Source of the DNA: Anaerococcus sp.
GTDB lineage: Bacteria; Bacillota; Clostridia; Tissierellales; Peptoniphilaceae
Direction of reading: 5' to 3'
Length of the DNA stretch: 64,000 nt
Assembly: GCA_022780515.1 (NCBI GenBank)
Contig: JALEUV010000066.1
Span: 1 to 64,000, forward strand
The notes under the pieces are model-generated. The model worked only from the letters and a program-made list of their open reading frames with translations. It was not told the origin of the DNA and did no database searches. The translations under genes and the position numbers were made by a program. Of the stretch, positions 11,281 through 45,513 are shown piece after piece (position 1 is the first letter of the stretch; every line of letters begins with the position of its first letter).

Positions 11281-12366
11281 ATGAAGAAGAAAGAATACAT
11301 TATTCCAATCTTTATTCCATTTTTGGGATGTCCGCATGACTGCGCCTTTTGTAACCAGGTTAAGATAACCAATTATAGGGATAAGGTCAACAAGGAAAAT
11401 ATAATAGAAGAAATCGAGAAAAATCTTTCTTACTTTCCAGATAATGAGAATTTGAAGGAAATAGCCTTCTATGGAGGATCCTTTACTGCCCTTCCACTAG
11501 AAACTATGGTTGCTTATCTTGAAATAGCTAAGTCCTACAAAGATAAGGGGATTATTGATAGGATCAGACTTTCTACTAGACCTGATTGTATAAATAATTT
11601 TATTCTGGATATTTTAAAGGACTATGGAGTTGATATAATCGAGCTTGGTATCCAATCCTTGGACCAAGAAGTCCTCGATGCCAACGAAAGGGGCCACAGG
11701 GTAGAAGACTCTTATGAGGCAAGCTCCCTTATAAAGAAAAGAGGCTTTACCTTGGGTCATCAAATTATGCCAGGACTCTTTAAGGATAGTTTTGCTAAAA
11801 CTATAAAAACAGCCATAGACTCAGCCAATATGGAACCAGATATTGTGAGGATCTATCCGACTTTAGTTATAAAAGAAACTAAACTCGAGCAATATTTCAA
11901 TCAAGGTATCTACAAGCCCCTAAGCCTAGATGAAGCCGTAAAATTATCAGCCCTTGCCTATATGATTTATAGGGCAAAAAATATCAATGTTATTAGGATA
12001 GGTCTCCAAGTCACAGAAAATATCAATGACAAGGAAGATGTAGTGGGTGGTCCCTTCCATTCAGCTATAAGGCAACTTGTAGAATCGTATATCTATAGGA
12101 TATATATAGAAAAATTAATTAAAGAAAATAATATAGAAGATGAAGCAAGAATTTACACTGACGATAGGTCGATATCAATCATAGCAGGCAATTTAAAATC
12201 TAACAAAAAATACTTCTATGATAGGTATGGTATAAAGCTAAGTTTTAAAAGTACAAAGGAAGTTCCATATATGGATACAAATGGGACAAAAATTGCCCTA
12301 GATATTGATGGATTTATCTACAATTATGTAAAAGAAAATTATGGTGGTGATTTAAAATTAGACTAG
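11281..12366 (+). CDS. radical SAM protein (Elp3-like)
   Basis: IPFLGCPHDCAFCNQ CxxxCxxC motif; FYGGSFTALP; LGIQSLDQEVL. Confidence 0.9.
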   Translation: MKKKEYIIPIFIPFLGCPHDCAFCNQVKITNYRDKVNKENIIEEIEKNLSYFPDNENLKEIAFYGGSFTALPLETMVAYLEIAKSYKDKGIIDRIRLSTRPDCINNFILDILKDYGVDIIELGIQSLDQEVLDANERGHRVEDSYEASSLIKKRGFTLGHQIMPGLFKDSFAKTIKTAIDSANMEPDIVRIYPTLVIKETKLEQYFNQGIYKPLSLDEAVKLSALAYMIYRAKNINVIRIGLQVTENINDKEDVVGGPFHSAIRQLVESYIYRIYIEKLIKENNIEDEARIYTDDRSISIIAGNLKSNKKYFYDRYGIKLSFKSTKEVPYMDTNGTKIALDIDGFIYNYVKENYGGDLKLD

Positions 12367-15300
12367 AAAGTATAGAGCTAAAGGGCTTTAAGTCCTTTGC
12401 CAGTAGAACTAAAATTGAATTTGACGACAAAATCACTGCTGTAGTCGGCCCCAATGGATCAGGTAAGAGTAACATAGCCGATGCCATTAGGTGGGTATTA
12501 GGTGAGCAATCTGCCAAGTCTCTCCGTGGAGCTAAGATGAATGACCTTATCTTTAAGGGGGGAGAAAGCAGCAAGTCCCTAAACCTTGCAGAAGTAGTTC
12601 TAAATTTTTCCAATGAGGATAAGAGTCTTAATATAGACTATGACCATGTCAAAATCCTCCGTAGGGTCTATCGAGATGGGGAAAATGAATATAGGATTAA
12701 TGGTAAAAAAGTTAGGCTCAAGGATATCAAAGAGCTATTCTTGGATACAGGTGTTGGTAAGGAAGGCTACTCTATAATATCCCAAGGACGTATTGACCAA
12801 ATAATCTCCTCATCGCCCAAGGATAGGCGACTTATTTTTGAAGAGGCAAGTGGTATAGCCAAGCACAAGTATAGGAGGGATGAATCCTCCAAAAAACTTG
12901 AAAAAGTTAGCGATGATTTGGAAATTATTGAAAGGGACTGGGAATTTAAAAAGCGTGACCTGGACCACCTTAAAACCTACAAGGATAACTACTTGAAAAA
13001 TAAGGACCTTACTGAAGCACTCAACAAAGATGCCTATTTTTACATCAAAGAGAAAAGTCAAAGCCTTGTAGAAAAGGAAAAAAAAATTAGTGAAGACCTT
13101 AGCCTCATAGATAAAGAAATCTTACAAAAGACTAAGGATAAGGAAGGTTATGAGAAAAAACTTGGGCCTTTTAAGGAGAATTTGGGCGCAATCCTAACTA
13201 GGGCAGATGGCTACAAGGGAAAATTAGAAGAGATAAGGGCCTTAAAGGATAAGGCAACCAATACTATTGAGATAAATAAGCAAAAGCTAGACTACAACGA
13301 GAGGGATATTGATAGGATTGGTAGAGAAATTGAAACCAATAAGTTAAAAAGAGAGAAGTTAAGTAGTGACCTTGAAAAAAGTAGGATAGCTAAGGAAAAA
13401 ATAGAGGAAGAATTAGACCTTGAAATAAAAAATAATAAGGCCAAGGAAGAAGAAATAATAAAGCTTGACCAGGTAATAGATGATCTAAAAAAGGAAAAAT
13501 CCAAGTATCGAAAAGACCAAGATGACCTGAATAATTTAATATATCAAATAGAACTAGAGCAAAAATCTAGGGAAGTCCTAGACAAAAAACGAGCAGAAGA
13601 TGCAATAATAAGGGGTCAAAAGATTAGTAAAATCGAAGACCAACTCAAAAGCTTTGAAGAAGAAAGGGAATCTCTTGACCAAGATGTAAAGGCTAAAGAG
13701 TCTGAGATTGATAATTTATCTAGGGATGTCAATAGCCTAAAAGAAAATCTTGAAGCTTCTAGGGCTAGTATGGAAGAGCTAGTTATTGAAAATAACAAGA
13801 ACAACCTAAATTTGAAGTCCGCTATTTCTGAATTTAAATTACAAAAGGAAACTATTGAAAAAAATAGGGGATATTTTTATTCTATCCAGGAGTTTCTAAA
13901 TAAAAGTAAGGAAAAGGGCCTAGATGACCTCTACTTAGATTCGCTTGCCAATCTAATTAGGGTTAGCGAGGGCTATGAAGATGTCATAGATATTTTGATG
14001 TCAGCTGGCCTACAAAATATTGTTACTAGAAACAAGGAAGATACCAGGAAGTTAATCAACTTCGTAAACTCTAATAGACTTGGTAGGGTAACTTTTTTGC
14101 CGATGGACTCTATCAAATCTTTCAGAAAAGAAAGACCTAAGGAAGATGAAGTCCTTGCCATGGCCTATGACTTGGTTGACTATGACCCAAGCCTAGGCTC
14201 TATTATAGATCACTTCTTAGGATCTACTGTAGTTGTTAGGGATATAGATGATGCAGTTAGCCTATCAGAAAAAATCAAGGGCTATAGGATAGTTAGTAAA
14301 AACCTTGATATTATAAATACCTGGGGGTCAATGGTCGCAGGTAATGATAAGAATAGAAAGAAGAATACCGACCTATTAAACAGGAATAAAAAGCTAGACC
14401 TAATAAAAAAAGACCTACTTCTTTTTAGGAATAAAAAAGATGAGATGAATAAGGCGTACTCTAGTCTAAGTCAGAAGATAGCAAGTCTCAAAGATGAGAT
14501 TGAAGATAAGGACTTAGACCTAAAAGCCAAGGAAAAGGACCTTTCAAGTCTTAGAAGAGATCTAGATGGCCTTATTATTAGGATAGAAAATTCTTATGCC
14601 AACCTAGAAGACCTACAAAAAGATATGTCCCTTGATTCAAGCGAGTTTTCTGATGTAGACCTTGACGAAAAGAAAAGGCAGAGGGAAGTCTTAATTGAAA
14701 AGACAGAAAAAATTAGCCTTGACCTAAATGTAAGCAAGGAAATGTATGCCACTAGCAAGGAAGAAAATTTAAAGGCTCAAAGTAAGATAGAGATCCTAAG
14801 AAGGGATATAAACCTAGCGGCAAATTCCTTAGCTAGCCTAGAAAATGAAATTGCTGACTTAGATGAAACCTATAAAAGAAATACAAAAATAAAGGCTCAA
14901 TTAGAAGAAGACCTCGATGGGTTAAATATCAAAGAAAAGGACCTTAGAGCTAAGATAAGTGACTTTGAAGGTCAAATTACTAAGCTTCAAGGAGATATAT
15001 CTAAGAGTAAGCAAATTATTTCAGATATGGAAGGAAAAAACCAAGAGCTTATTAAACTTAATAAGGAAAGCGAAGATAGGCTAAACGACCTTAATTTAAA
15101 GAGGGTTAAGGTATCCTATGACCTAGATATGGCTAGGCAAAACTTGGCTTCCATAATGGATGAAGTAGGGCCTTTTATGTCTATTTCTTATGATAAGGCA
15201 GAAGAATTATTTATAGGTCAGGAGCCTACAAAAGTTACCAAGAAGGCACTTGTTGATAGACAGAGGGAGATTAATTCTATAGGATTTTTCAATGAAACTT

Positions 15301-15875
15301 CTCTACAGGATTACGAAAGTGCAAAGAAGGACTTCGACTTCTTGGATAAGCAAATGAAGGACCTTATTAACTCCAAATCTGATATAGAAGAGATGATAGC
15401 AAGGCTTGAAGAGCAAATGAAAGAAGAATTTGTCAAGAATTTTAATATAATTAACGAGAAATTTACTAGAATCTTTAAGGTTTTGTTTAAGGGGGGAGAT
15501 GCGAGGTTGCTCCTAGATTCTAAGGATAGCTTAAATGCCGGCGTAGATATTGAAGCAAGGCCTCCTTCTAAGTCTCCTAAGTCCATATCCCTCCTATCTG
15601 GTGGGGAGAAGGCCCTTACTGCAGTGGCTCTTTTATTTGCAATCTTTGAAACAAATCCTGCTCCCTTTGCCATCCTTGATGAGATAGATGCTGCCTTAGA
15701 TGAGGCCAATATCAAAAGATATATAGAATACCTAAAGAGTCTATCTGATAAGACCCAATTTATTATGATAACCCATAGGCAAACAAGTATGACCTTAGCT
15801 GAGAAAATTCATGGGGTAACCATAGACGATAAGGGTATAAGTAAGCTATATTCCATTGACTTCGGTCAAAATTGA
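12357..15875 (+). CDS. smc: chromosome segregation protein SMC; apparent ATT start, ORF-track start (12537) is truncated
   Basis: Upstream of 12537 the frame reads RLESIELKGFKSFASRTKIEFDDKITAVVGPNGSGKSNIADAIRWVLGEQSAKSLRG (Walker A); in-frame TGA at 12348; GGTGGTGA SD at 12343-12350; hinge GRVTFLPMD; C-term LLSGGEKALTAVALLFAI...ILDEIDAALDEAN. Confidence 0.93.
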   Translation: MRLESIELKGFKSFASRTKIEFDDKITAVVGPNGSGKSNIADAIRWVLGEQSAKSLRGAKMNDLIFKGGESSKSLNLAEVVLNFSNEDKSLNIDYDHVKILRRVYRDGENEYRINGKKVRLKDIKELFLDTGVGKEGYSIISQGRIDQIISSSPKDRRLIFEEASGIAKHKYRRDESSKKLEKVSDDLEIIERDWEFKKRDLDHLKTYKDNYLKNKDLTEALNKDAYFYIKEKSQSLVEKEKKISEDLSLIDKEILQKTKDKEGYEKKLGPFKENLGAILTRADGYKGKLEEIRALKDKATNTIEINKQKLDYNERDIDRIGREIETNKLKREKLSSDLEKSRIAKEKIEEELDLEIKNNKAKEEEIIKLDQVIDDLKKEKSKYRKDQDDLNNLIYQIELEQKSREVLDKKRAEDAIIRGQKISKIEDQLKSFEEERESLDQDVKAKESEIDNLSRDVNSLKENLEASRASMEELVIENNKNNLNLKSAISEFKLQKETIEKNRGYFYSIQEFLNKSKEKGLDDLYLDSLANLIRVSEGYEDVIDILMSAGLQNIVTRNKEDTRKLINFVNSNRLGRVTFLPMDSIKSFRKERPKEDEVLAMAYDLVDYDPSLGSIIDHFLGSTVVVRDIDDAVSLSEKIKGYRIVSKNLDIINTWGSMVAGNDKNRKKNTDLLNRNKKLDLIKKDLLLFRNKKDEMNKAYSSLSQKIASLKDEIEDKDLDLKAKEKDLSSLRRDLDGLIIRIENSYANLEDLQKDMSLDSSEFSDVDLDEKKRQREVLIEKTEKISLDLNVSKEMYATSKEENLKAQSKIEILRRDINLAANSLASLENEIADLDETYKRNTKIKAQLEEDLDGLNIKEKDLRAKISDFEGQITKLQGDISKSKQIISDMEGKNQELIKLNKESEDRLNDLNLKRVKVSYDLDMARQNLASIMDEVGPFMSISYDKAEELFIGQEPTKVTKKALVDRQREINSIGFFNETSLQDYESAKKDFDFLDKQMKDLINSKSDIEEMIARLEEQMKEEFVKNFNIINEKFTRIFKVLFKGGDARLLLDSKDSLNAGVDIEARPPSKSPKSISLLSGGEKALTAVALLFAIFETNPAPFAILDEIDAALDEANIKRYIEYLKSLSDKTQFIMITHRQTSMTLAEKIHGVTIDDKGISKLYSIDFGQN

Positions 15876-43599: not shown

Positions 43600-44772
43600 T
43601 TAATTTAATTTTCTTTTTGAAATTCTAACCTTGCTAGAATCAATGGTTTTAATTGACTCGTCTTCTAGGATTCCATCATCGTATTGGCGTTTTTGCATGG
43701 AGCCTGACAGGGCGAGGCCAATATTTATTAGGGTTATTAGCTGGAAGGTTCCTCCGTAGGAGAAGAAGGGTAGGGGAATACCCGTAACTGGCATAATTCC
43801 TATGGTCATAGCTATATTTTCAAAGATATGGATGAACAATAGGGCTGCCAATCCAGTAACTATAAAAGTTATAAAGGAGTTCTTTGATTTTTTGGCTATA
43901 TTTACAAGTCTTAGTATCATTATTGCAAATAGAATAATAACTGCAATAGATCCTATAAAACCTAATTCTTCTGCGAGGACTGGGAAGATAAAGTCGGTTT
44001 CTTTTTCTGGAATATAGCCGTATTGACTTTGGCTTCCATTTAGGTAACCTCTACCAGTTAGCATTCCTGAGCCTATGGCTATAAGACCTTGTTGTTGTTG
44101 CCAGTTGGAACCTGATGTATCTCTAGATGGGTCTAAGAAGTTTTGGATCCTATCTAGCCTATAACCAGAAAGGTTATTGATTGCTACAAAGGCAAGTATA
44201 AGGGCAAGTCCCCCAAAAATTGCTATCCACTTCCAAGAAATTCCACTTACAAAGATCATAGCAGCAATAAAAAATACATAAACCATTGATGTACCAAAGT
44301 CAGGTTGTAACAAGATGAGTGCTACAGGAAGTCCTGCCATAATAACAACCTTGAGGACTGTAAACTTATCATTGATATCAAACTTATGCTTATCTAAGAA
44401 TGCTGCCAAGGCAAAGATCATACCCACCTTTGCAACTTCTGATGGCTGGAAGGAAATAGGTCCTATATAAAGCCAAGAGCTAGCTCCCCACTCATCTAGT
44501 CCCCTACCAAGAAATATGGTAAGGACCAAGAGGACATTAATTACCAGATAGACTATAAGATATGATCTTTTGATAAAATCAAGGTCTATGGTACAAAGGA
44601 TTAGGATAAGGCCAAATCCTAAGAGGGTCGCTATTATTTGAGAAGTTATGGGTCTAATGTTACCTCCATGGGCTGAGTACAATACTATTAGACCAAATAT
44701 ACTTAATATTATCGTTACAAATAATAGAATAAAGTCAAATTCCTTTAAATCTTTTTTCTTTAAATTAAACAT
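43600..44772 (-). CDS. rodA: FtsW/RodA/SpoVE-family cell-cycle/shape protein (SEDS glycosyltransferase)
   Basis: Multi-TM; PISFQPSEVAKVGMIF; GLIAIGSGMLTGRGYLNGSQSQYGYIPEKETDFIFPVLAEELGFIG; GIPLPFFSYGGT. Confidence 0.93.
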   Translation of the reverse strand: MFNLKKKDLKEFDFILLFVTIILSIFGLIVLYSAHGGNIRPITSQIIATLLGFGLILILCTIDLDFIKRSYLIVYLVINVLLVLTIFLGRGLDEWGASSWLYIGPISFQPSEVAKVGMIFALAAFLDKHKFDINDKFTVLKVVIMAGLPVALILLQPDFGTSMVYVFFIAAMIFVSGISWKWIAIFGGLALILAFVAINNLSGYRLDRIQNFLDPSRDTSGSNWQQQQGLIAIGSGMLTGRGYLNGSQSQYGYIPEKETDFIFPVLAEELGFIGSIAVIILFAIMILRLVNIAKKSKNSFITFIVTGLAALLFIHIFENIAMTIGIMPVTGIPLPFFSYGGTFQLITLINIGLALSGSMQKRQYDDGILEDESIKTIDSSKVRISKRKLN

Positions 44773-44824: not shown

Positions 44825-44871
44825 TCAAAATTGCAAAAACTTAAGGGTATAATCAAATTAGAGGTGATATT

Positions 44872-45513
44872 ATACTTAAGCAAAAAGAAATAAGAGAAGT
44901 ATTAGAAATATTAGACAAAACTTATCCAGATGACGATCGCTCTATGCTAAACTTTACTAGTCCCTTTGAGCTTTTAGTTGCAACCATGCTATCAGCCCAA
45001 TCAACCGATCTCAGAGTTAACAAGGTTACTGAAGTCATGTTTAAGGACCTTAATACTCCGGAGGACTTTGCCAAGGCTGATCTAGAGACAATTATTTCCT
45101 ATATAAAAACCGTAGGAATCTATAAGAATAAGGCAAAAAATATAAAGGCAACTAGTGAAATCCTAGTTAGGGACTACAATAGCCAAGTTCCTAGGGATAG
45201 GGATGAGCTTGTTAAGCTCCCAGGGGTTGGTAGAAAAACTGCCAATGTAGTGCTGTCCAATGCCTACGGGATTCCTGCCATAGCAGTAGATACCCATGTC
45301 TTTAGGGTGGCTAATAGGATAGGACTTGCAGAGAGTAATAATGTTTTGGCTACAGAAAGAGATTTAGAGAAAAATATTGATAGAGAACTTTGGTCAAAGA
45401 CCCACCACCAACTTATAAGGCACGGTAGGGCAATATGTAAGGCGAGAAAGCCAGAGTGTAAGACTTGTCCCTTAAATAAAGTTTGTGAATTTGTAGGTAA
45501 AAATCATGATTAA
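44872..45513 (+). CDS. nth: endonuclease III; apparent ATA (44872) or ATT (44869) start, ORF-track start 44944 is truncated
   Basis: Frame open from 44845; encodes (I)LKQKEIREVLEILDKTYPDDDRSMLNFTSPFELLVATMLSAQSTD before and through the ATG at 44944; SD GAGGTGAT at 44861; HhH LPGVGRKTANVVL; Fe-S CKARKPECKTCPLNKVC. Confidence 0.9.
   Translation: MLKQKEIREVLEILDKTYPDDDRSMLNFTSPFELLVATMLSAQSTDLRVNKVTEVMFKDLNTPEDFAKADLETIISYIKTVGIYKNKAKNIKATSEILVRDYNSQVPRDRDELVKLPGVGRKTANVVLSNAYGIPAIAVDTHVFRVANRIGLAESNNVLATERDLEKNIDRELWSKTHHQLIRHGRAICKARKPECKTCPLNKVCEFVGKNHD

Follow-up and report, generated by a model that had tools for sequence, protein, structure and literature searches.

A genus-wide AUU/AUA start codon proposed for the endonuclease III gene of Anaerococcus

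Described genes with rare start codons

Few bacterial genes are known in which AUU or AUA serves as the start codon. One is infC, which starts with AUU, AUA or AUC and is autoregulated by IF3. Escherichia coli pcnB has an AUU start (Binns and Masters 2002, as cited in PMC13009471), and in Staphylococcus aureus AUA and AUU starts with extended Shine-Dalgarno (SD) sequences work at ∼10–30% of AUG expression (PMC13009471). The Streptomyces gene sigR has a GTC start that is repressed by IF3 (PMC5472188). The phenomenon is already known (infC, pcnB, ccpN, sigR), and nth, the endonuclease III gene of Anaerococcus, is a further case. We analysed it in a window of 64,000 nucleotides (contig JALEUV010000066.1, forward strand) and in related genomes.

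Like infC, nth has a clade-wide AUH codon that follows a strong extended SD; infC, however, feeds back on its own product, whereas nth is not known to be connected with initiation. With pcnB, nth shares that it encodes a nucleic-acid enzyme whose level would be held low by an AUU start, although the enzyme and the clade are different, and the pcnB effect is experimental where we infer that of nth. The S. aureus/Bacillus genes ccpN (AUA) and cvfC1 (AUU) likewise have extended SDs and starts conserved across related species (PMC13009471). These encode a regulator and a small protein, respectively, and were proven by initiation profiling, whereas nth and smc, a second gene of the window, are DNA-maintenance genes whose starts we infer by comparison. 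The resemblance to sigR lies in a genus-conserved non-canonical start, which for sigR is misannotated in public genomes, while its GTC codon and its stoichiometry role with rsrA set sigR apart (PMC5472188).

The nth start site and its conservation

In the window sequence, an in-frame TAA (44842–44844) is followed by an nth frame that is open from 44845 to 45513 on the forward strand. Counted from the ATA at 44872–44874, the gene (44872–45513) encodes 213 amino acids. The first ATG, GTG or TTG of the frame is the ATG at 44944–44946, inside a conserved block, and starting there would cost the protein 24 residues of its conserved N-terminus. The initial annotation had described nth as lacking a canonical start and had placed this ATG within the conserved block; re-reading the frame gave the same coordinates, and the arrangement recurs throughout the genus. 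It had also taken the encoded peptide for the N-terminus of endonuclease III, and the protein comparisons agree. The product scores 269 bits against TIGR01083 (cut-off 212) across model positions 2–192 of 192 and matches both PF00730 and PF00633; this full-length match over a curated cut-off, together with the HhH motif, identifies it as an endonuclease III. The peptide LKQKEIREVLEILDKTYPDDDRSMLNFTSPFELL begins at 44875, and, with the protein counted from the ATA, the alignment to the solved homologues 1p59 and 1orn begins at residue 2. Among the 54 genes of the window, only nth and smc combine at least 30 open codons ahead of the first canonical start with a conserved N-terminus.

The nth start could be read in 30 Anaerococcus genomes, comprising the window, 28 congeners (L002–L029) and G023 (L066). 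G003 was omitted from the count, its nth being split by a downstream frame break (G003:C1:211487-212102). The orthologue comparison, which the initial annotation had proposed as a check, found ATT (28) or ATA (2) at the column of the window codon 44872 in all 30 genomes. The two ATA carriers, the species of the window and, at 92% identity, its sister G026, read ATA CTT after the SD, while the other 28 read ATT TTA. In the window, the extended SD GAGGTGAT occupies 44861–44868 (forward strand), exactly where it had been placed ahead of ATT 44869 and ATA 44872, and its GG lies 7 nt from the ATA. The GGTGA core is present in 30/30 genomes with a GG-to-start gap of 7–8 nt, giving nth a strong, extended SD at proper spacing.

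The initial annotation had left the choice between ATA and ATT as initiator, of which the ATA stood. The ATT at 44869 shares the frame and the SD of the ATA, and ATT also occupies this column in 18 of the 30 species. Elsewhere, however, the column reads AGT (6), AAT (4), GTT or, once, TAA, and the ATT abuts the SD, only 4 nt after its AGG, making initiation at 44869 improbable. The single TAA belongs to L016 (G017), where it directly precedes the homologous nth ATT, so that initiation in this species cannot lie upstream of the ATT.

A start at a downstream canonical codon, which here would be ATG 44944 and would give an N-terminally truncated Nth, has in its favour that this is the sole available ATG, GTG or TTG and that gene finders restricted to those codons would pick it. 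The ATG is not preceded by an SD, however, and the position of the first canonical codon is unconserved, falling anywhere from codon 5 to codon 37 in congeners. The 22 codons upstream of ATG 44944 also evolve under coding constraint and align with solved endonuclease III: identity over codons 1–22 is 0.60, 0.78 and 0.51 at the first, second and third codon positions, and none of 20,000 column permutations reached the observed difference between positions 2 and 3. We consider a truncated Nth very improbable.

A GTG is present wherever GGTGA is, which raises the reading that translation begins at this GTG inside the SD, or at another upstream codon, and then shifts into the nth frame. The GTG is in frame in five species (G023, L023, L024, L026 and L027), without an SD of its own, and in these it could act as a start. 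In the other 25 it is out of frame, in L016 an in-frame TAA follows it, no conserved slippery site was seen, and complementarity to the 16S rRNA end explains the SD sequence itself. We give this reading hardly any weight for nth, and recoding or a frameshift was rejected on the inconsistency of frame among genomes. The genome of the window is a 125-contig draft, as would suit a start lost to a sequencing or assembly error, or an nth pseudogene, but the same arrangement occurs in 29 further genomes, of which many come from cultured isolates, and the frame is otherwise intact. With the architecture in 30/30 genomes, neither chance nor a sequencing error accounts for it; the comparison already refutes the error reading, to which, with the pseudogene, we assign a next to negligible probability.

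Outside Anaerococcus, we compared ∼30 nth genes of the same family and order, and in nearly every one an ATG, GTG or TTG lies within ∼4 codons of the site, so the AUU start looks like a derived trait of the genus. Taken together, the ATT/ATA column in 30/30 genomes, the unconserved downstream canonical starts, the in-frame TAA before one ATT and the canonical outgroup starts nearby identify ATA 44872 as the probable initiator of nth, the variant that this species has of an AUU start found throughout the genus, at a probability of roughly 0.88. An AUH codon stands at the position homologous to the relatives' starts and there is no usable ATG, GTG or TTG; comparative data thus support a non-canonical start. 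What the sequences show for nth is where this start lies, that it is conserved and that no canonical start could replace it. The genus-wide AUU nature of the start goes beyond what the initial annotation had seen.

Leader and proposed initiation of nth

The rodA-like neighbour (43600–44772, reverse strand; TIGR02210, 352 bits, cut-off 337) is divergent, which shows that nth heads a transcript of its own. A TATAAT at 44848–44853 (forward strand) is the probable −10 box of nth, and a TATAA/GT box is similarly placed, 17–33 nt 5′ of the start, in 30/30 genomes. Leaders would accordingly measure ∼10–26 nt across the genus and a predicted ∼12 nt in this species. Of the earlier suggestion that this TATAAT gives a very short leader, the position of the box held and its recurrence was added, and the short leader itself is plausible. 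A consensus scan gave no sigma-70 pair on the forward strand here and no convincing −35 element for nth. No RNA structure was found at the nth start (z = +0.8), and no fold masks the site.

We propose that nth is translated from the AUA at 44872. On a short leader, the strong extended SD lying 7 nt ahead would place this codon, with fMet put in by the ordinary CAU initiator tRNA. Genome G022 has two conventional CAU initiator tRNAs, and no variant initiator with a non-CAU anticodon is present among the tRNAs found in it. With conventional initiators, AUU and AUA would have to be read by near-cognate pairing, presumably helped by the extended SD. On the tRNAs found in G022, whose initiators are ordinary, we rejected a changed genetic code or a variant initiator tRNA that would decode AUU/AUA. 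A separate prediction for Anaerococcus is that CGG encodes tryptophan (PMC8629427); the CGG codon is absent from the main reading frames of the window, and G022 has a tRNA with the anticodon CCG.

As for infC and pcnB, a weak start would cap Nth output and give IF3 sensitivity. Low-efficiency, IF3-sensitive initiation of nth is likely on this analogy, and may bring a regulatory benefit.

smc and other AUU-type genes

The chromosome segregation gene smc (12357–15875, forward strand; TIGR02168, 835 bits, cut-off 567) shows the same features. Its initiator codon, ATT 12357–12359, follows the SD GGTGAT (12346–12351, forward strand) and corresponds in alignment to Met1 of other SMC proteins, while the first canonical codon of the frame, ATG 12537, lies past the Walker A motif. 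The beginning of smc overlaps the radical-SAM gene ahead of it (11281–12366) at that gene's end. Among 31 Anaerococcus genomes the codon is ATT in 30 and ATA in one (G023), and a stop codon directly precedes the ATT in 5 of 30 loci. Outgroups have a canonical start at exactly the homologous position in 18 of 19 cases (TTG 12, ATG 5, GTG 1), the 19th having TTG one codon earlier. As in nth, AUU or AUA has replaced a canonical start, here at exactly the homologous position, and the route may have led from UUG, the commonest outgroup start, to AUU. In four related genomes (G003, G007, G014 and G030) the smc frame ends early, at 251–529 amino acids. By analogy with the described systems, the output of both Nth and SMC is likely limited and IF3-sensitive, the rare starts probably holding both proteins low.

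Other genes show similar starts. Across the order, the start codon of infC is ATT, ATA or ATC, and it is ATA in the three Anaerococcus examined, including the window's own genome (L126, G000:C116:30109-30603). At nine positions where IF3 hardly varies among 22 relatives, the protein of three Anaerococcus carries other residues. An L,D-transpeptidase-like gene (L277–L299; own genome L282, G000:C4:9008-10387) was read in 23 congeners; its homologous start is ATT, ATA or ATC in 17 of them and TTG in the other 6. Among the genomes searched it is present only in Anaerococcus, and it provides a natural start-codon series. A small lipoprotein gene (L301–L314; own genome L307, G000:C108:10157-10465) has an apparent ATA/ATT start after GGGGTGA. 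A weaker case is an RpiR-type regulator read in two species (L238, G022:C1:1135789; a gene within G027:C1 1-400000), where an AGGTGAT SD precedes ATT in one and ATC in the other. The transpeptidase-like and RpiR-type genes were named from their own sequence without a family search, and the transpeptidase and lipoprotein cases were found in 400-kb samples.

Ortholog pairs between the 400-kb samples (only 41, a weak survey) gave no further AUU/AUA cases. Patterns of an SD followed by ATT were not above a reversed-pattern control, and with no genome-wide enrichment the AUU/AUA/AUC gene set of Anaerococcus is probably small. It is conceivable, but on balance doubtful, that smc, nth, infC, the transpeptidase, the lipoprotein and the RpiR-type regulator form an IF3-responsive regulon that ties chromosome upkeep to the level of the initiation factor, with IF3 having co-evolved. 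A literature search of incomplete coverage found no AUU starts of nth, nor a description of these genes, their genus-wide conservation or the start-codon series.

Gene finders limited to ATG, GTG and TTG would cut 24 residues from Nth and 60 from SMC, in the latter past the Walker A motif. For the biology of the genus, an AUU start held throughout in two chromosome-maintenance genes, alongside a gene whose start varies among AUU, AUA, AUC and UUG, would offer a test bed for discrimination by IF3.
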